Shown here in pieces: positions 11,254 through 53,649 of a stretch of DNA of 64,000 nt. The notes under the pieces were generated by a model that saw only the letters and a list, made by a program, of their open reading frames with translations, searched no databases and was not told the DNA's origin. Source of the DNA: Oceanitalea stevensii (GTDB lineage Bacteria; Actinomycetota; Actinomycetes; Actinomycetales; Actinomycetaceae); the NCBI RefSeq assembly GCF_014837105.1, contig NZ_JACSPO010000002.1, positions 137,470-201,469 of the forward strand, given 5' to 3'. Numbering within the stretch: position 1 is the stretch's first letter; each line of letters begins with the position of its first letter. Both the position numbers and the translations under genes were made by a program.

Positions 11254-11319
11254 CCGCCGACAGCTGACTTGTTACTCCCGGCGGCACCGTCCGCTGGGTA
11301 ACAACTCAGCTGTCGGCGG
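11254..11319. repeat. Intergenic palindromic repeat (TTGTTAC subtype)
   Basis: The left arm at 11254-11275 begins CCGCCGACAGCTGA and ends TTGTTAC. The right arm at 11298-11319 is its reverse complement at 21 of 22 positions. The 22-nt centre can form a smaller stem (CGGCGG against CCGC). It lies between the convergent cca and carbonic anhydrase genes and could terminate both, but the arms have no T-tract. The same base (CGCCGACAGC) recurs at 38.6, 48.1 and 51.4 kb, so it belongs to a dispersed family. Confidence 0.85.
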
Positions 11320-38640: not shown

Positions 38641-38683
38641 CGCCGACAGCCGGATTCCTCCCGGAGGAATCCGGCTGTCGGCG
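38641..38683. repeat. Intergenic palindromic repeat (GGATTCCTCC subtype)
   Basis: Two 21-nt arms (38641-38661 and 38663-38683) are perfect reverse complements around one central base. The left arm begins CGCCGACAGC and ends GGATTCCTCC. It lies between the convergent LLM and SRPBCC genes and probably works as a bidirectional terminator. The same arm sequence is found inside the coding region of gmhA-hldE at 48062 and 48157. Confidence 0.92.
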
Positions 38684-44920: not shown

Positions 44921-44987
44921 GACCTCCCCGGTTCTCCTCACCACGCCCCGCTGCGAGGGGGGAGGTCGGAGGAAGACCGGGGAGGTC
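44921..44987. repeat. Inverted repeat at the end of the glycan operon
   Basis: GACCTCCCCGGTTCTCCTC at 44921-44939 pairs with 44969-44987 at 17 of 19 positions. The right arm runs two bases into the GT9 stop codon. It is the probable terminator of the eight-gene operon and sits before the alkA start. A further GAGGGGGGAGGTC inside the loop could compete for pairing. Confidence 0.75.
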
Positions 44988-45951
44988 AGTGGGAGGGCTG
45001 GAGGGCCAGGAGACCGGACGTCGCGGCCGCCACCTCGTCGACCGTGATCGCGGCGAGGGCCGGGTCGACCTCCGCGGCGTGCGGGTCGCCCGTGCCGTCG
45101 CCGTGCCACAGGACGACGTGCCGCTCGGTGTCGAGGGCCGGGCCCCACGTCGTCGGCGGGGTGGGGCCGAAGAGGAGTACCGAGGGCGTGCCGACGCCCG
45201 TCGCGACGTGTGCGACCCCCGTGTCACCGCACACGAGCAGACGGGCGCCGGCCACGAGGGCGGCCAGGCCCGGGACGTCGTGTTCGCCGGCCACCGACCG
45301 GCCGACGTCGCCGGCCACCTCCGCGCACAGCCCCGCCTCCCCGGCCGAGCCGGTGACGAGCACCCGGTGCCCGTCAGCGCTCAGCCGCCGGGCCAGCTCG
45401 CGCCAGCGCTCCACCGGCCAGCGGCGCGACCCGGAGGCCGCACCGGGGTGGAGGAGGACGGCGTCCGCGACGCCCTCCGCCGGCTCGACGGGCAGGCGCA
45501 GGTCCTCCGGCCCGCACTCGCCGCCCGCGGCGGTGAGCAGGCGGCACCAGCGCGCCACCTCGTGCTCGTCCGCACGGAACTCCGGTGCGACGTCGCCGGC
45601 GGAGGCGGGATGCCCGGCCTCCGGGCTGGCGAAGGCGACGAGCCGGGACGGGCCCGTGACCGCGAGCAGCCGGTGGCTCTGCGGCCCACGGCCGTGGAGG
45701 TTGACGGCCACGTGCCCGCCGGCCCCGCCCACGGCCAGCGGCTCGTCCAGCCCCACGGTGGGGACGACGGCGTCGACCAGCCCCAGCCGGACGAACCACC
45801 CGCCGATCCCCTCGGGACCGGCAAGCACCACCCGCCGGCCCGGCCACGCCCGGCGCACCCCGCGCAGCGCCGCGACCCCGGTGAGCGCGTCACCGAGGCC
45901 GAGCGCCCGCAGGACGAGGACGTCGCCGGGCCCGAGACCGGCTAGGGCCAC
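44986..45951 (-). CDS. Family 9 glycosyltransferase (heptosyltransferase-like)
   Basis: A 321-residue GT-B enzyme of the ADP-heptose:LPS heptosyltransferase family. It starts [31 protein letters not shown]. The donor-side loop [18 protein letters not shown] and the [30 protein letters not shown] segment are characteristic. It is last in the operon that encodes heptose synthesis, so nucleotide-heptose is the likely donor. It overlaps the SDR gene by ten bases. The acceptor is unknown; no LPS is expected in this organism. Confidence 0.9.
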
Positions 45952-46634
45952 GACGGCTCGCCGGAGGCCATGACGAGCATCTCCCGGATCTCGCTGCCCA
46001 CCGGCTGCTGCAGCGCCATGAGGACGGCGCCGGCGGTGTGGGCCGGGTCGTTGAGGTCCTGGTCAGGGCCGGGCTTGAAGCGCTCGTCGCGGCCGTCGAA
46101 GAAAGCCGTGCGCATGCCGCCGGGCACGAGGCAGGTGACGCCCACCCGCCCGGCGTACTCGGCGGCCAATGCCTGGGAGAAGCCGCGGATCGCGAACTTC
46201 GAGGCGGAGTAGGCCGTCGCGGCGTCGGCGCCCTTGAGGCCGAGCGTGGAGGAGACGGTGACGACCGTCCCGCGGCTCTCCTCGAGGTGGGGCAGGGCGG
46301 CGCGCACGACGGCGACCGTCCCGAGGAGGTTGACGTCGATGACCCGCCGCCAGTCCACGGGGTCGATGTCGAGGATCGGCCCGCACGCGTCGGTTCCCGC
46401 CGCCGTGACGACCGCCGTCGGCGGCCCTACCTGCTCGACGAGCGAGGCGACCGCCGCGGTCGCCGCGTCCCAGTCGCTGAGGTCCGCCACGACGTGCGGC
46501 ACGTCGACCGACGGCGCGACCCGGTCGATGACGGCCGGGCGCCCGCCCGCCGCCCTCACCGCCTCGACGACGGCGGCCCCCAGGCCGCCGGCCCCTCCGG
46601 TGACGTAGACAGTTCCGACCTCGCGCAGCTTCAC
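45942..46634 (-). CDS. Short-chain dehydrogenase/reductase
   Basis: A 230-residue classical SDR with the cofactor loop VTGGAGGLGAAVVEAV, the catalytic Ser in VVTVSSTLG and YxxxK in YSASKFAIRG. It oxidises or reduces a hydroxyl/keto group with NAD(P)(H). At this size it is not the extended-type HldD epimerase, but its place directly after gmhA-hldE suggests it modifies the sugar or glycan. Its ATG overlaps the previous stop (ATGA). Confidence 0.9.
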   Translation of the reverse strand: MKLREVGTVYVTGGAGGLGAAVVEAVRAAGGRPAVIDRVAPSVDVPHVVADLSDWDAATAAVASLVEQVGPPTAVVTAAGTDACGPILDIDPVDWRRVIDVNLLGTVAVVRAALPHLEESRGTVVTVSSTLGLKGADAATAYSASKFAIRGFSQALAAEYAGRVGVTCLVPGGMRTAFFDGRDERFKPGPDQDLNDPAHTAGAVLMALQQPVGSEIREMLVMASGEPSWP

Positions 46635-48748
46635 CCTGCTCCTCCCGTTGACCGTGCGTGCTCCGCGGCCTGGGCGGCCTGCTCGGAGCGGCTGATGATG
46701 GATGTCGTCGACCGGCCGCCCAGGTAGGGCAGCAGGACGACCCGGCCGCCGTGCGCCTGCACGACCTCCGTCTCCGGCAGCGGCCTGCCGCCGTAGTCCC
46801 CGCCCTTGGCCCAGATGTCGGGCCGCAGGTGGGTGAGCGTGCCGCGCGGGTCGTCGGCGTCGAGGACGACGACGGCGTCCACGCAGTCCAGCGCCTCGAG
46901 CACCTTGGCGCGGTCGGCCGCGGGCACGACCGGTCTGCCCGGTCCCTTGAGGCGAGTGACCGACGCGTCGGAGTTCATGAGGACGACGAGGCGGTCACCG
47001 AGCCGGCGCGCCGCCTGCAGCGTCGCGACGTGGCCGGCGTGGACGATGTCGAAGCAGCCGCCGGTCGCGACGACCGTCGCCCCGTCCCCGCGCAGCCGGG
47101 TGGCCAGCTCGCGCAGGGCGTGCGGCTCGGCCTTGAGGACGCCGCCGCGCTCGGTGGGCGCCTCGGGGGCGGGCTCGCCGGTGGGCCGGCGGCGGCCGCG
47201 GAAGCCCTCGGCCCCGCCCGCCGCCACCCAGGCCGAGGCGTCCGCGACGGCGGACTCGACCGCCTCGGAGAGCAGCGCGCCGGACGCCAGGGCGCTGGCG
47301 GCGCTCGCGGCGAAGCGGTCGCCCGCACCGCAGGGGTCGCCCCCGTGGGTGGCGACGGCGGGGACGTAGCTCGTCTCGTCGTCGTGCGCGGCGAGGAAGG
47401 CGCCGTCGGGGCCGGCCGTCACGCACACCCCCCGGGCCTGCCACGTGGTGCGCAGCGCGGCGGCGGCGACGTCGGCGGGCGCGTCGGGGCGCTCGACGGC
47501 GGCGCGGGCCTCGCTGAGGTTGGGGGTGACGAGGGCCGCGCCGGGCACCGGGGCGCCGCCACGCGGGTGGGGGTCCCACACGAGCCGGGTGCGGCAGGCG
47601 GCGTCCGCGAGCAGTTGCCGCAGCCCGGGGTGGCGGGTGGTGCCGGCGCCGTAGTCGGAGACGAGGACGGCGTCGGCGCTCGCGAGCACCCGGGCCACCT
47701 CCTCGAGCGGGAGGTCGTCGCCGGGGCTGCCGGGGCCGCCGTCGTCGACGCGGACGAGGGACTGGCCGCCGCTGCGGATGCGGGTCTTGCGGCGGGTGGC
47801 GCCCTCGTGGGGCAGGCGCAGGACCGTGAGGTGCTCCTCGAGCTCGGTGACGAGCCGGTCACCGTGCTCGTCGTCGGCGATGGGCGCGACGAGGGTGACG
47901 CGGCCGGTGCACAGGAGCGCCGCGAGGCCCGCGCCACCCGGGCTGTGGCGGGTGGTGCTCACGTCGAGAACCGGGACGGGGGCGTCGGGGGACAGGCGCG
48001 TGACCTCGCCGTCGACGTCCGCGTCGAGGACGACGTCCCCGACGACGACGACGTGCGGCGCGGAGGAATCCGGCTGTCGGCGAATGGGGGTCGCGAGCCA
48101 TTCGCGCGAAGGCGCCTCCCCCTCCCGCCGAGAGCTGGAATTCTCCGGACCCACGTCGCGAGAGCCGGATTCCTCCCCCACCCCGAGGTGGCGGTCGAGG
48201 GCGGCGCAGAGGGCGTGGATGGCGACGAGGTGGCCCTCCTGGACGGCCGCCGTCGAGGGGGCGTCGACGCACAGCGCGTCGTCGCACAGCTCGGCGAGCG
48301 GGTTGGGGACGGGGCCGGTGAGTCCCCAGACGGTGAGTCCGAGCTCGCGGGCGCGCTCGGCGGCGCGCAGCACGTTGGGGCTCTTGCCGGAGGTCGACAG
48401 GAGGACGAGGACGTCGCCGGGGCGTCCGTGGCCCTCGACCTGCCGGGCGAACATCTCCTCGGCGCCGTAGTCGTTGACGATCGCGCTCACGCTCGAGGAC
48501 TCCGAGCACAGCGAGATCGCCGAGAAGGAGCGGCGGTCGTGGAGGAAGCGGCCGACGAGCTCGGAGGTGAGGTGCTGCGCCTCCGCGGCGCTGCCGCCGT
48601 TGCCCGCCGCGAGCAGGCGCGCGCCGCCGGGCAGCCGCTCGGCGAGCTCGGCGGCCCACTGCTCCACGGTGCCGGCGTGGTCCTGGAGGAAGGTGAGGGC
48701 GGTCTCGAGCTCGGCCCGGTGCTCGTCGATCCAGTCCTGGGCGCTCAT
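46631..48748 (-). CDS. gmhA-hldE: GmhA-HldE fusion: sedoheptulose-7-P isomerase + heptose kinase/nucleotidyltransferase
   Basis: A 705-residue protein in one unbroken frame. Residues 1-190 are GmhA (SIS fold: AAGNGGSAAEAQHL, STSGKSPNVLRA, zinc-site VQEGHLVAIH). Residues of about 231-525 are the PfkB-like HldE kinase (GDPCGAGDRF). Residues of about 550-705 are the HIGH-type nucleotidyltransferase (TGGCFDIVHAGH, KGGDYGG). The enzyme would isomerise sedoheptulose-7-P, phosphorylate C1 and later attach a nucleotide. The linker (192-229) is encoded entirely by a palindromic repeat (48062-48176). Separate GmhA and HldE are usual; here the repeat removes the boundary. ATG 48748 overlaps the GT4 stop as ATGA. 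Confidence 0.93.
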   Translation of the reverse strand: MSAQDWIDEHRAELETALTFLQDHAGTVEQWAAELAERLPGGARLLAAGNGGSAAEAQHLTSELVGRFLHDRRSFSAISLCSESSSVSAIVNDYGAEEMFARQVEGHGRPGDVLVLLSTSGKSPNVLRAAERARELGLTVWGLTGPVPNPLAELCDDALCVDAPSTAAVQEGHLVAIHALCAALDRHLGVGEESGSRDVGPENSSSRREGEAPSREWLATPIRRQPDSSAPHVVVVGDVVLDADVDGEVTRLSPDAPVPVLDVSTTRHSPGGAGLAALLCTGRVTLVAPIADDEHGDRLVTELEEHLTVLRLPHEGATRRKTRIRSGGQSLVRVDDGGPGSPGDDLPLEEVARVLASADAVLVSDYGAGTTRHPGLRQLLADAACRTRLVWDPHPRGGAPVPGAALVTPNLSEARAAVERPDAPADVAAAALRTTWQARGVCVTAGPDGAFLAAHDDETSYVPAVATHGGDPCGAGDRFAASAASALASGALLSEAVESAVADASAWVAAGGAEGFRGRRRPTGEPAPEAPTERGGVLKAEPHALRELATRLRGDGATVVATGGCFDIVHAGHVATLQAARRLGDRLVVLMNSDASVTRLKGPGRPVVPAADRAKVLEALDCVDAVVVLDADDPRGTLTHLRPDIWAKGGDYGGRPLPETEVVQAHGGRVVLLPYLGGRSTTSIISRSEQAAQAAEHARSTGGAG
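48062..48176. repeat. Palindromic repeat translated as the GmhA-HldE linker
   Basis: Outer arms at 48062-48082 (GGAGGAATCC followed by GGCTGTCGGCG) and 48157-48176 (CGCGAGAGCC then GGATTCCTCC) pair with two mismatches. A third, diverged arm (CGCCGAGAGCTGG...TTCTCC) lies at 48126-48146. The left arm equals the intergenic copy at 38663-38683 base for base. The 115-nt block has no stop in the gene's frame and encodes residues 192-229, rich in Ser, Arg, Glu and Pro. Confidence 0.92.
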
Positions 48749-49971
48749 GCGGTCGCCGCCTTCCGTGGTGTCGTAGTGCGGGCGGTGCGGACCTCGGCGT
48801 AGGCAGCCTCGGTCGCCGCCGCCACCCGCTCCCAGCTGAAGCGCTCCTCTGCGCGGGCGCGGGCGGCCTCGCCGTAGCGGGCCCGCAGGTCCGGGTCGAC
48901 GAGGAGGCGGGTGATCGCCGCGGCGAGCGCGTCGGGGTCGCGCGGGGGGACGAGGGCACCGGTGCGGCCGTCCTCGACGGAGTCGAGCAGCCCGCCGACG
49001 GCGCTGCCCACGAGCGGGCGCCCGCAGGCGGCCGCCTCGAGCGGCACGATCCCGAAGGGCTCGTACCAGGGTGTCGCGACGACGATGTCCGCCGAGCGGA
49101 TGAGCGCCGGCACCTCGGTGCGTGACGCGGAGCCGACGAAACGCACCCGGTCGGAGACCCCGAGCTCCTCGGCGAGGGCGTGCAGGCGCCGGGCCTCGGG
49201 GTCGGTGCGGATCTGGGACTGATCCGGACCGCCGGCGACGAGCAGCTCGACGTCGGGCAGCAGCGGCAGCGCGGCGACGACCGTCTCCACGCCCTTGCGC
49301 TCGACGAGCCGCCCGAGCGAGAGCAGCCGGAAGGGCTGGTCGCCGCGCGAGGGGTGGACCTCGCCGTCGGGGCTGAAGAGCTGGACGTCCACCCCGCACG
49401 GCACGACGCGCACCCGTGACCGGTCGACGCCCATCGCCTCGAGCTCGGCGACCTCGTCGCTGCACGTCGCGACGACGAGGTCCGCCTCGGTGGCCACCCG
49501 GGTCTCGGCCTCCACCCGGCCCGCGGGGCTGGTGTCCTTGGCCCCCTGGTGGCGGCGCTTGACGGTGCCGAGGGCGTGGAAGGTGTGGACGACCGGCACG
49601 GGCACCTGCTCGGCCGCCTCGAGGGCGGCCAGCCCGGACATCCAGAAGTGGGAGTGGACGACGTCGGGCCGCTCCCCGTCCGCCCAGCGGCGAGCCAGCC
49701 ACCGGCCGAGCTCGGGCATGTAGGGCAGCAGGTGGTCCTTGGGCAGCACGCGCGCCGGACCGGCGGGGACGTGGACCACCCGCACCCCGGGCAGCATCTC
49801 CACATGCTCGGGCAGCTCGGGGTCGTCCCGGCGGGTGTAGACGGCGACGTCGTGTCCCCGCCGGGCGAGCGCGGCCGCGAGGGCGGCCACGTGGACGTTC
49901 TGCCCGCCGGCGTCCTCACCGCCGAGCGCCGCCAGCGGGCTGGCGTGCTCCGACACCATCGCGATCCTCAT
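48745..49971 (-). CDS. Family 4 glycosyltransferase
   Basis: A 408-residue GT-B enzyme. It has the glycine-rich acceptor-domain start (SEHASPLAALGGEDAGGQNVHVAAL), VHSHFWMSG, the donor-domain RLLSLGRLVERKG and the EX7E catalytic motif in TPWYEPFGIVPLEAAACGRPLV. It resembles the MshA/sucrose-synthase-like branch in its GGQNVHV motif. It transfers a sugar within the operon's glycan; donor unknown. The ATG at 49971 overlaps the upstream stop as ATGA. Confidence 0.92.
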   Translation of the reverse strand: MRIAMVSEHASPLAALGGEDAGGQNVHVAALAAALARRGHDVAVYTRRDDPELPEHVEMLPGVRVVHVPAGPARVLPKDHLLPYMPELGRWLARRWADGERPDVVHSHFWMSGLAALEAAEQVPVPVVHTFHALGTVKRRHQGAKDTSPAGRVEAETRVATEADLVVATCSDEVAELEAMGVDRSRVRVVPCGVDVQLFSPDGEVHPSRGDQPFRLLSLGRLVERKGVETVVAALPLLPDVELLVAGGPDQSQIRTDPEARRLHALAEELGVSDRVRFVGSASRTEVPALIRSADIVVATPWYEPFGIVPLEAAACGRPLVGSAVGGLLDSVEDGRTGALVPPRDPDALAAAITRLLVDPDLRARYGEAARARAEERFSWERVAAATEAAYAEVRTARTTTPRKAATA

Positions 49972-50927
49972 CGGACGACCTCCTTCAGCAGCGACTGCCA
50001 GTCCGCGAGGAAGCGGACGGCGGAGAAAGCCTCGGTGGCGTGGCGGCGGGCGGACTGCCCGCGCTCCCGCGCCTCGGCGGGGTCGGCGAGCCAGCGCAGC
50101 GCCGCCTCCTCGAGCACCCGCGGGTTGGCCGACACGACACCGGCGTCCGCGGGGACGGCCTCGGGGGCCGCCGTCGTCGCCAGGGCGAGGACCGGCAGGC
50201 CGATCATCATCGCCTCGATGAGCGAGAGCCCGAGTGAGGTCCACCGGTAGGGGTGGAGGTAGGCGCGCTGCCGGCCGAGCAGCGGGTGCATCTCGGACTG
50301 GCGGACGTCCTCGTGCAGGTGGCCGGCCAGGTGCGGGGCGTGCTCCTCGAGCGCGGCCATCCCCATCCCGTACACGGACAGCGGGACGGTGCGGGACAGG
50401 TCGAGGACGACGTCGGTGCCCGCCACCCGCCACCGGCGCACCGGCTCGTTGACGACGACGCCGACCCGCTCCTCCTCGCCGGCGTACAGGTACCCGGGGT
50501 CGAGGACGCCGTGGTCGATGACCGTCGTCGGCGCGCGGCCGCAGTCCCACACGAGCGCGTTGAAGTGGGTGACGTGGACGACCGGAATGTCGTCGCGGTC
50601 GGCGAGGGGGTGGCGGGTGCGCACGGCGTCGCCGTTCGGGGTGTTGTGCTCGACGTAGACGGCGGGCACGTCCCGGCCCGGGCGCAGGCCGGTCCACTCC
50701 TCGAAGAGCGCGATCTCGTGGGGCCGCTGGAGGACGACGACGTCGCAGCCCTCCTCCCGCAGCTGGGCGGGGCTGAGCTCGCGGGCGTTCGGGGGCCAGT
50801 CCCACGTGCGCGCCCGGCCCAGGCCGTCGGGCCCGCGGTCGGGGAGCACCGGGATGAGGTACTCGTCGGGACCGGTGACGAAGGGGGTCAGCCAGGACCC
50901 GTGGACGTGCCAGACGGCGACCTTCAC
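49968..50927 (-). CDS. Glycosyltransferase (GT-B, unassigned family)
   Basis: A 319-residue protein with a GT-B look: VKVAVWHVHGSWLTPFVTGPDEYLIPVLP at the N-terminus, YVEHNTPNGD in the middle, and a C-terminal donor-type segment PYRWTSLGLSLIEAMMIGLPVLALATTAAPEAV that parallels the EX7E region of GT4 enzymes. I cannot assign a CAZy family with confidence. GTG 50927 overlaps the GT9 stop as GTGA, so it is part of the same coupled operon and probably adds a sugar to the same product. Confidence 0.82.
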   Translation of the reverse strand: MKVAVWHVHGSWLTPFVTGPDEYLIPVLPDRGPDGLGRARTWDWPPNARELSPAQLREEGCDVVVLQRPHEIALFEEWTGLRPGRDVPAVYVEHNTPNGDAVRTRHPLADRDDIPVVHVTHFNALVWDCGRAPTTVIDHGVLDPGYLYAGEEERVGVVVNEPVRRWRVAGTDVVLDLSRTVPLSVYGMGMAALEEHAPHLAGHLHEDVRQSEMHPLLGRQRAYLHPYRWTSLGLSLIEAMMIGLPVLALATTAAPEAVPADAGVVSANPRVLEEAALRWLADPAEARERGQSARRHATEAFSAVRFLADWQSLLKEVVR

Positions 50928-52138
50928 GCCATGACCTCCTGGGGGACGAGGGACGCGACGGCGTCCACGACCTGCTGGGGACGGATGCCGGTGAGGCAGG
51001 GGTGGCCGGGCACCGGGCACTCCCGGGCGCGGGTGCCGGCGCACGCGGCGAGCTGGTCGCCGAGGACGATGGTCGGCACCCCGTAGGGCGCCCACCGCTC
51101 GGCGGGCACCACCGGGGAGAAGAGGGAGACGACGGGCGTGCCGACGGCGGCCGCCAGGTGCGCGGGGCCGGTGTTGCCGACGACGACGCACGCGGCGCCG
51201 TCGAGCACCGCTGCGAGCTGGGGCAGGTCGGTGCGGCCGGTGAGGTCGTGGACCCCCGGCCTGGCGGGCAGCGGCGTCTCCCTGGGCCCGCCCGTGACGA
51301 CGACGTCCCACCCCGCCCCGACGAGTGCCTCCGCGATCGCCCGCGCATGCTCGGGCGCAATCGCCCGCGCCGGCACCGACGCCCCCGGATGAAGGACCAC
51401 GTACCCGCCCCGTCGCCGAGCGCTGAGTTGTTCCTCCACGAGGGGGGCGCCGCCAGTAACAACTGAGCTGTCGGCGCGAAGGGGGTGACCTCCCGGGCCC
51501 TCCCCCCGTCGCCGAGCGCTGAGTTGTTCCTGGACGAGGGGGGCACCGCCAGTAACCACTGAGCTGTCGGCGCGAAGGGGGTGACCTCCCGGGCCCTCCC
51601 CCCGTCGCCGAGCGCTGAGCTGTTCCGCGGTCAACGGGTTGTCGGGGAGGGGGCGGCGGACGGCGAGGCGGCCGTCGTCGCCCTCCGGGAGCCCCGCCCC
51701 GGCGGCGCGGGCGAGGTCGAGGGCTGCTTCGACCTCGTGCAGCCCCTCGGGACGCTGGTGGCGGACGTCGAGCAGCGAGCCGGGGTAGTCGACGCTCGTC
51801 GCGGCGACGTGCCCGATCCCCGCCATCTTCGCCAGCAGCGCCATCGGCAGCGGGCTCTGGTGGAAGGAGGTGAAGATGACCGCCCGGTCGTAGCGGCGCC
51901 CCGCGAGGGTCGCGACTAGCTCCTCGATCGCTGCGGGGTCGACCGCCGGCGGTCGGTAGCCGGACCACGGGGCCGCGACGACGAGCACGTCCCGCACCCC
52001 CGGCAGCAGCCGCGCGGCCGCGGCACCGGTGGGCGAGGCGAGGAGGTCGACATCGTCGCGGGCGGCGAGGGCGCGGACGGCGGGCCCGGTGAGGAGGACG
52101 TCGCCGTCGTTGTCGAGGCGCACGGCGAGGGTCGTCAC
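50924..52138 (-). CDS. Family 9 glycosyltransferase with repeat-encoded insertion
   Basis: A 404-residue heptosyltransferase-like enzyme: MTTLAVRLDNDGDVLLTGPAVRAL at the N-terminus, the donor loop VVLHPGASVPARAIAPEHAR, and VVGNTGPAHLAAAVGTPVVSLFSPVVPAERW. Residues of about 171-242 between the two Rossmann domains are encoded by two 96-nt units and a partial third (EQLSARRRGEGPGGHPL...). Without it the protein would be about 332 residues, normal for GT9. The insert falls in the interdomain loop, where it may be tolerated. The start ATG 52138 overlaps the GT2-GmhB stop. The donor is probably a nucleotide-heptose. Confidence 0.9.
   Translation of the reverse strand: MTTLAVRLDNDGDVLLTGPAVRALAARDDVDLLASPTGAAAARLLPGVRDVLVVAAPWSGYRPPAVDPAAIEELVATLAGRRYDRAVIFTSFHQSPLPMALLAKMAGIGHVAATSVDYPGSLLDVRHQRPEGLHEVEAALDLARAAGAGLPEGDDGRLAVRRPLPDNPLTAEQLSARRRGEGPGGHPLRADSSVVTGGAPLVQEQLSARRRGEGPGGHPLRADSSVVTGGAPLVEEQLSARRRGGYVVLHPGASVPARAIAPEHARAIAEALVGAGWDVVVTGGPRETPLPARPGVHDLTGRTDLPQLAAVLDGAACVVVGNTGPAHLAAAVGTPVVSLFSPVVPAERWAPYGVPTIVLGDQLAACAGTRARECPVPGHPCLTGIRPQQVVDAVASLVPQEVMA
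51414..51626. repeat. 96-nt tandem repeat with palindromic core inside the GT9 gene
   Basis: Unit 1 is 51414-51509, unit 2 is 51510-51605, and unit 3 is cut short at about 51626. Units differ at only a few bases. Each unit contains an inverted pair: CGCCGAGCGCTGAGTTGTTC against GTAACAACTGAGCTGTCGGC, close to the intergenic palindrome at 11254-11319. The 96-nt length is a multiple of three and no unit has a stop in the GT9 frame, so copies can be added without breaking the protein. Confidence 0.93.
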
Positions 52139-53649
52139 TGGTCCTCACCCGCCATCGCGAGGACGAGGTCGACGGCGGAGGAGAGGTCCGCGGCGACGTG
52201 CTCGGCCTGCTCGACCTCCTCCTCGCGGGTCACCGGCGTAGGGACGAGGACGGCGCGAGCGCCTGCGGCCCGGGCGGCACCGACGTCGGCGCCGATGTCC
52301 CCGACGACGACGCACTCGTGCGGCTCGACGCCCAGCGCACGCGCGGCGCGCAGCACCATCCCCGGGCCGGGCTTGCGGCAGGTGCAGCCGTCCTCGGGGC
52401 CGTGCGGGCAGTGCTCGACGACGTCGAAGGAGCCGAGGAGGTCCTGGACGCGCTCGTTGACCCGGCCGACGTCCTCGGCCGCGATGAGGCCCCGGGCGAC
52501 ACCCGACTGGTTGGTCACCATCCCGATGAGCAGCCCGCCCGCGCGCAGCCGGCGCAGCGACTCCGCGGCGCCGGCCACCGTGCGGACTTTGGCCGGGTCC
52601 CCGTTGTAGGGGACGTCCTCGACGATCGTGCCGTCGCGGTCGAGCAGGGCGGCGCGCACCGGCGGTGGCCACGCGGACACGTCGCGGAAGCGGACCGCCC
52701 CGTGCAGCCGGTGCCACACCGCGGACCACGGGATGGCCACGCTCGTCCACGCCATGCGGCGCCACTCCGCGGCCCAGCCCTCCTCGCCCGGGCGGGGCCC
52801 GGGCGCGATGCGACGCGCGGCGAAGTCGGCGGTGAGCCCCGCCCACGTCGCGGCGGCCACGGTGGCCGCGCGATGACGACCGGCCACCGCGAGGAGCGCG
52901 GCGGCGCTCCCGGCGGCCACGGTGGCGACGTGCCACCGGAAGCGGCCTCGCCCGGTCCCGCCGATCTCCCGCCAGGTGGGGCCGTGCAGCGCGCGCATGA
53001 GGGAGTCGGAGGCCGAGCCGGCCTGCATGCGCAGGCTCACGGCGTCGTCCGCGGGGCGGACCGGGTGGAGGATCTCGCGCTCCCCGCGGACCAGCTCCCA
53101 GCCGGCCTGCGTCACGCGCAGGGCGAGGTCGGCGTCCTCCCGGTAGGCGCGGGGGAAGCGCTCGTCGAAGCCGTGGACCGCGGCGAGGGCGGCGCGGCGG
53201 TAGGCCATGTCGGCCGTCGCCCACAGCGCCGTCTCCAGCCCCGCGGTGTTGCGCTCCCAGTCGGTGGGGCGGCGGTGCTCGGGCAGCGGGACGGTGATCC
53301 GGCCCTGCGTGGCGCCCACCCGCGGACCGGCGGCCGCAAGGTCCGCGGCCAGCCGGGTGGCCCAGCCGGCGGGGAGGCGCACGTCGTCGTCGAGGAAGGC
53401 GACCCACTCGGTGGTGGCGGCCCGCCAGCCCGCGTTGCGGGCGGCGGCGGGGCCGCGGCCGCCGGAGCGCAGGACGTCGACGGGCACGGCGCCGTCGGGC
53501 AGGTCGAGGGGCTCGGTCCGGTCCAGCGGTCGGTCGTCGACGAGGACGATGCGCGCGGGGGCGGGTCCGTCCTGGCCGAGCAGGTCGGTGAGCACCTCCC
53601 GCAGGGACGGTCGGCCGACGGTCGGCAGGACGACGGTGTAGTCGCTCAC
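52135..53649 (-). CDS. gmhB: Family 2 glycosyltransferase fused to D,D-heptose 1,7-bisphosphate phosphatase
   Basis: A 504-residue fusion. Residues 1 to about 240 form a GT-A glycosyltransferase (VVLPTVGRPSLREVL, VDDRPLDRT, FLDDDVRLP, EDADLALRVTQAGWE). The middle contains hydrophobic stretches (AAALLAVAGRH). Residues of about 330-500 are a HAD-IIIA phosphatase of GmhB type: LLDRDGTIVEDVPYNGDP with the nucleophile Asp, TNQSGVARG, zinc-binding CPHGPEDGCTCRKPGPGM and VVGDIGADV. The HAD part removes the C7 phosphate between the two HldE steps. Joining it to a GT suggests that sugar synthesis and transfer are physically linked. ATG 53649 overlaps the carbamoyltransferase stop. Confidence 0.93.
   Translation of the reverse strand: MSDYTVVLPTVGRPSLREVLTDLLGQDGPAPARIVLVDDRPLDRTEPLDLPDGAVPVDVLRSGGRGPAAARNAGWRAATTEWVAFLDDDVRLPAGWATRLAADLAAAGPRVGATQGRITVPLPEHRRPTDWERNTAGLETALWATADMAYRRAALAAVHGFDERFPRAYREDADLALRVTQAGWELVRGEREILHPVRPADDAVSLRMQAGSASDSLMRALHGPTWREIGGTGRGRFRWHVATVAAGSAAALLAVAGRHRAATVAAATWAGLTADFAARRIAPGPRPGEEGWAAEWRRMAWTSVAIPWSAVWHRLHGAVRFRDVSAWPPPVRAALLDRDGTIVEDVPYNGDPAKVRTVAGAAESLRRLRAGGLLIGMVTNQSGVARGLIAAEDVGRVNERVQDLLGSFDVVEHCPHGPEDGCTCRKPGPGMVLRAARALGVEPHECVVVGDIGADVGAARAAGARAVLVPTPVTREEEVEQAEHVAADLSSAVDLVLAMAGEDQ

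Follow-up and report, generated by a model that had tools for sequence, protein, structure and literature searches.

Does a repeat that lies exactly where two genes have become one also explain how they became one? In the window analyzed here, a continuous stretch of 64,000 nucleotides, gmhA and hldE share a single reading frame, and the joint between them is built of repeat units that recur elsewhere in the genome. A first-pass annotation had proposed that a mobile palindrome fused the two genes by inserting in frame. The results below indicate that the repeat marks the joint and is not a demonstrated cause of the joining.

GmhA and HldE are encoded by one gene

The gene and its two parts, identified by the open frame, domains and purifying selection (whole gene) or by matches to Pfam and NCBIfam models (parts), are as follows.

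46631-48748, minus strand: fused gmhA-hldE gene, 705 aa
48179-48748, minus strand: GmhA (sedoheptulose-7-phosphate isomerase) domain, residues 1-190
46634-48061, minus strand: HldE (heptose kinase and adenylyltransferase) part

The 46631-48748 frame runs for 705 codons with no stop, and Pfam and NCBIfam models place a SIS/GmhA domain (residues ~20-188), a PfkB/HldE kinase (230-513) and a cytidylyltransferase (549-688) along it in the order of a GmhA-HldE architecture, so that the single frame read in the first-pass annotation is borne out. Both halves are under purifying selection, with dN/dS of 0.08-0.16. Because the scores against the NCBIfam GmhA and HldE equivalog models fall under the curated cut-offs, the enzyme activities are putative. 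Judged from sequence, the Georgenia satyanarayanai clade has a genuine GmhA-HldE fused enzyme, with these putative activities.

An AlphaFold2 model of the fused protein, computed with 11 fused homologues as input (mean pLDDT 70.7), gave pLDDT values below 50 at residues 191-227, the stretch encoded by the repeat; this stretch is flanked by a helix ending at residue 188 and a strand starting at residue 232. Thus, the repeat-encoded linker between GmhA and HldE is predicted to be disordered.

The gene lies in an ADP-heptose/heptosyltransferase operon (44986-53649) in a Gram-positive actinobacterium. Overlaps of 4-10 nt between the end of one open reading frame and the start of the next are found at most of the other junctions of this operon; the first-pass annotation had claimed one at every other junction.

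Repeat units at the joint

The units at the joint and the intergenic palindrome that they match are listed here.

48062-48176, minus strand: repeat-derived linker, residues ~192-229, units A+ A+ A-; pLDDT <50 at 191-227
48157-48176, minus strand: unit A+, first in the mRNA, GGAGGAATCCGGCTCTCGCG, peptide EESGSR
48126-48147, minus strand: A+-like unit, CGGAGAATTCCAGCTCTCGGCG, peptide ENSSSRR
48062-48082, plus strand: unit A antisense to the gene (A-), peptide RRQPDSS along the gene; exact match to the 38641-38683 arms
38641-38683, no strand assigned: intergenic 21-bp perfect family-A palindrome, terminator-like by folding energy and orthologous hairpins

Frame and domain limits confirmed the 115-nt in-frame repeat at 48062-48176, which extends from codon 191/192 to codon 229. 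Its arm GGAGGAATCCGGCTGTCGGCG, at 48062-48082, had been reported as identical to 38663-38683; it is, and it is equally identical to the second arm of that palindrome, at 38641-38661 on the reverse strand. In shuffled sequence, only 0.02 matches to this arm are expected by chance, even when 3 mismatches are allowed. The description of the joint as a palindrome was right in that repeat units are present, but the units form an A+, A+-like, A- series rather than one simple palindrome: the outer arms pair perfectly over 14 nt only, with an 87-nt spacer between them.

Two families of hairpin-forming units in the Georgenia satyanarayanai clade

This genome (3.53 Mb) belongs to the G. satyanarayanai clade, as placed by its named relatives. 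Unit A (GGAATCCGGCTSTCGGCG), with up to 2 mismatches allowed, has 199 copies in it versus 3 for a reversed control, and unit B (GNAACAACTNAGCNNTCGGCG), of a second and related family, has 229 copies versus 0 for its control, the counts being dependent on the search patterns used. The corresponding A/B counts in four relatives are 38/282 (G001), 75/61 (G002), 215/60 (G004) and 26/0 (G003), and counts in other genera are 0-4, such that the units are nearly absent beyond the genus. These are families of short units of 18-21 nt that end in TCGGCG; as a rule they are arranged in inverted pairs, which form terminator-like hairpins immediately behind stop codons. Several of the contig ends C1, C8, C9, C11, C27 and C28 of this assembly (G000) lie inside or near unit arrays, and the copy number is therefore probably a lower bound. 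Long direct repeats returned by a general repeat finder mainly reflected similarity among G+C-rich coding sequences and were set aside.

G002 additionally has an 18-bp unit, CGCCGACAGCCGACTTAC with its variants, in tandem arrays (e.g., G002:C16:75831-75938 and G002:C12:280779-280904). Arrays related to this unit replace hairpins at orthologous intergenic sites and are found in frame in the linker of an RNase H-phosphatase gene.

The window holds intergenic pairs of both families; that of family B is the following.

11255-11318, no strand assigned: intergenic inverted pair of family-B units

The family-A palindrome at 38641-38683 has a 1-nt loop, lies between the 3' ends of two convergent genes and folds with -58 kcal/mol over 71 nt (z -7.2); orthologous hairpins are present in G004 and G002. 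Across 564 kb of this genome taken without bias, and with genes called by a simple purpose-made caller whose calls outside the window are approximate, unit clusters occur at 1.17 per kb in convergent gaps, 0.34 in tandem gaps, 0.10 in divergent gaps and 0.01 in coding sequence. Single matches with 3 mismatches within coding sequence (C11:165350 and 226299) were taken as chance. Such a skew of the clusters toward convergent gaps is that of 3'-end hairpins, terminators among them.

As in terminators, then, a stable hairpin is found just past stop codons, with enrichment in convergent gaps and stems that are kept at orthologous sites. A T-run after the stem was absent from the stems examined, as exemplified by ATAGGGGGCAGGGGG after 38683. 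Terminators without a T-run have been proposed for actinobacteria. From position and folding, the intergenic hairpins are putative transcription terminators. Between 36 and 54 kb of the window, no Rfam family reached its gathering score.

The fusion among relatives

The fused gene is present in all four clade genomes that have the two genes, namely this one, G001 (L068), G002 (L062) and G004 (L061); G003, of the same genus, has no close match to gmhA or hldE. The joints measure 114, 120, 75 and 114 nt, respectively, all multiples of three and all stop-free. No two of the four linkers are the same in sequence. This genome and G004 have A+A+A- at the joint, G002 has a degenerate A+ together with A-, and G001 has B+B+; the A- unit lies at a common 3' edge of the linker in this genome, G004 and G002.

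Relatives lacking the repeat had been predicted to carry separate, overlapping genes, and this proved correct in four sister Georgenia (sp. SYP-B2076, G. thermotolerans, G. ruanii and sp. EYE_87), in which gmhA ends in TGA, the start of hldE overlaps it and no unit is present. Beyond the clade, the same fusion was found in four Cellulomonas genomes, two Nakamurella genomes, Sanguibacter suarezii and G042; judged by eye, the joints of these fusions, from at least three lineages, contain no matching units. Explaining a tree of 45 sequences takes 5 changes of state, and well-supported branches force 4 of these; by this tree the fusion arose several times. A fusion without the repeat had been named as what would refute the insertion hypothesis; such fusions do exist outside the clade, but they are independent events and none lies inside it. 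They therefore leave the hypothesis standing inside the clade.

A conserved internal start for HldE was considered and rejected: in-frame GTG codons lie near the joint in this genome, G004 and G001, and none does in G002. In fact, G002 has no in-frame ATG, GTG or TTG across the joint, and HldE there is accordingly without a start codon of its own.

Units in the linkers of other proteins

In the sampled stretches of this genome, all three of the other coding copies lie in interdomain linkers, those of a GT9 heptosyltransferase, LigD and an RNase H-phosphatase. The first of these is in the window.

51408-51627, minus strand: family-B units in the interdomain linker of the GT9 heptosyltransferase gene (50924-52138)

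This segment contains three family-B + units and two 96-bp direct copies. The GT9 linker carries B units in this genome and G001, A units in G004, and none in G002 and the sister species. The RNase H-phosphatase linker (L266, G000:C11:233288-233344) has B units in this genome and G001 and an 18-bp array in G002, while the two-domain gene is free of units in G003, G004 and G026. The LigD linker (L185, G000:C28, near 111065) has A units in this genome and degenerate A-like units in G004 and G002, with no clear unit in G001 and G003. Since all three linkers exist elsewhere without units, units enter linkers that are already there.

Coding + units are all read in one codon phase (EESGSRR, EQLSARR), and coding - units in one of two (RREPDSS, ADSSVVT); every frame used yields a polar peptide. 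With so few independent loci (four), this restricted frame use is a pattern and not proof of selection.

Did the repeat cause the fusion?

Our preferred reading, to which we give a probability of roughly 55%, is that units colonized a tolerant linker after the fusion; we regard this as no less likely than a fusion brought about by insertion. The two genes would have fused first, or through an unrelated deletion or frameshift, with the units arriving later. Hairpin units of the clade would then have colonized the linker of the fused enzyme and been degraded, duplicated or swapped in each species. More generally, units may build up in frame in multidomain proteins, whose disordered linkers would tolerate many soluble peptides, and their spread would rely on copying or conversion instead of a transposase. 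Colonization after fusion is favored over insertion because the other coding units lie in pre-existing linkers and because no GmhA tail is left at the joint. Four genomes are informative about the cause of the fusion, and because the clade contains no fused gene free of units, the arrival of the units and the fusion are inseparable in time.

The insertion proposed in the first-pass annotation is a possible but somewhat doubtful alternative. A hairpin element arriving at the gmhA stop/hldE start would have abolished the stop and shifted the frame, so that the two genes became one, with translation through the hairpin preventing termination. This would account for the separate overlapping genes of the unit-free sister species, the units in all four fused species and the A- unit at one edge in this genome, G004 and G002, which would fit the presence of an element at the joint in an ancestor; moreover, the elements favor gene 3' ends, and the GTGA/ATGA overlaps require a change of frame that an insertion of other than a multiple of three could supply. 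However, an insertion at the stop/start overlap should have preserved the GmhA tail of sister species, more than 10 codons long, and none is recognizable; the sister-type hldE start has likewise left no trace. The type of unit at the joint also varies by species, units enter linkers that exist without them, and the fusion occurs elsewhere without matching units. For these reasons, the claim that the insertion caused the fusion is not upheld. Frame use and disorder would be expected under insertion as well.

We consider it improbable that the joint was a recombination-prone spot, at which a single deletion, running between units on either side of the gene boundary, took out the stop together with both tails and left the units as a scar. 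Such a deletion would explain both lost tails and the A+...A- layout, and unit arrays and duplications are common, but no intermediate with a unit on each side of the boundary was found. Least credible of all is a chance or assembly artefact, in which the frame would be open only through G+C richness and two proteins would be made: stops are rare in G+C-rich frames, contigs of this assembly end in repeats and three genomes have the in-frame GTG, yet four separately sequenced genomes concur, every linker is stop-free and a multiple of three, G002 offers no start across the joint, and both halves are under purifying selection.

Comparison with known repeat systems

Rickettsia palindromic elements (RPE; Ogata 2000/2002) are short, palindromic, genus-restricted repeats, with several families per genome, that lie in frame in unrelated conserved genes; they are ~150 bp long, contain an open reading frame for a conserved peptide, and are intragenic in nearly half of the cases (PMC10969869, PMC2229807). 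The Georgenia repeats are also palindromic and genus-restricted, comprise several families, and are found in frame, where they are tolerated, in gmhA-hldE, GT9, LigD and RNase H-phosphatase genes. Unlike the ~150-bp RPE with its one peptide, the Georgenia units are 18-21 nt long and variably arranged (75-120 nt at one site), most copies lie just past stop codons, the coding copies are in interdomain linkers, and the host is of a different phylum. The Georgenia repeats thus resemble RPEs but are not that family, being set apart by size, open reading frame and layout.

In-frame fusion to genes is described in reviews for RPEs and other MITE-like repeats, which may thereby give rise to proteins (PMC2229807, PMC10969869). 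ERIC, Correia/NEMIS and YPAL are intergenic stem-loops of the MITE type that sometimes join reading frames and have been proposed as makers of new proteins (PMC2229807). The Georgenia units share terminal inverted repeats with these, the stems being mostly 18-28 bp, but differ in that no target duplication was seen (the flanks are diverged) and no transposase was identified in a search for the Y1 family.

REP/BIME sequences with their RAYT transposases are short extragenic palindromic units that occur as inverted pairs at gene 3' ends, as the Georgenia units do. A Y1/RAYT transposase was tried as the mobilizer and rejected, since the Y1_Tnp domain (PF01797) was found in none of 6 genomes, while control genomes were positive. 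A mobile element in the transposon sense, as the repeat had been called, is therefore not supported: no IS200-type (Y1) transposase was found in the genus, and empty sites, with their diverged flanks, show no target duplication.

Hairpin stems are exchanged at orthologous sites

Comparison of orthologous flanks revealed that the hairpin persists across species while the sequence of its stem is replaced. Among the sites compared, which were picked from short clusters, C22:229063 has a B stem in this genome and G001 and an A stem in G004 and G002; C22:232840 has B in this genome and G001, A in G004 and the 18-bp array in G002. At C27:136292 (site 16), this genome and G004 have A, G001 has B, and the stem of G002 falls between the two types; at C27:220204 (site 17), A is again found in this genome and G004, and B in G001. 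The 30 stems at nine exchange sites, a set that leaves out the G002 stem at 38641 with its mismatches near the loop, are mostly 18-28 bp long and have 641 of 674 positions paired. Empty sites occur as well (sites 3, 5 and 9), with strongly diverged flanks. Because this genome and G004 are sisters with ~94% identity and the remaining species are at ~90%, the stem exchanges are recent.

Tentatively, we suggest that the terminator hairpins are species 'dialects', in which the inner stem (CCGGATTCC, CTGAGTTGTT or the 18-bp array) is swapped, and the outer CGCCGA and the hairpin are kept, between species that are 6-10% apart. A genome-wide homogenizer, be it sequence-directed conversion, a binding factor or an unknown mobilizer, might then also rewrite interdomain linkers in frame, including the joint of the newly fused enzyme. 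The uptake-sequence terminators of Neisseria and Haemophilus, with their DUS dialects, offer a parallel in that a repeated word stands in inverted pairs behind genes. Georgenia has such pairs behind genes and 'dialects' at common sites, but its units are about twice as long, its copies number hundreds rather than thousands, and its stems are replaced wholesale and not by one or two bases.

If stem exchange is general, it would provide a natural system in which to study the copying or conversion of dispersed hairpins with no obvious transposase, and the way in which disordered linkers, including those of fused enzymes, gain sequence. In-frame palindromic repeats have been known as an oddity of Rickettsia; similar repeats are now seen in a free-living actinobacterium, with terminator-like hairpins. 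In this small group of soil actinobacteria, terminator-like units sit in the linkers of multidomain enzymes. Nothing relevant to Georgenia repeats or to an actinobacterial GmhA-HldE fusion was found in the open literature searched.

At one further locus (L215, on G004:C109, the orthologue of C11:668031 in this genome), the hairpin site has expanded and now holds many A- arms, arrayed at a ~32-nt period, which suggests slippage or unequal exchange of single arms.
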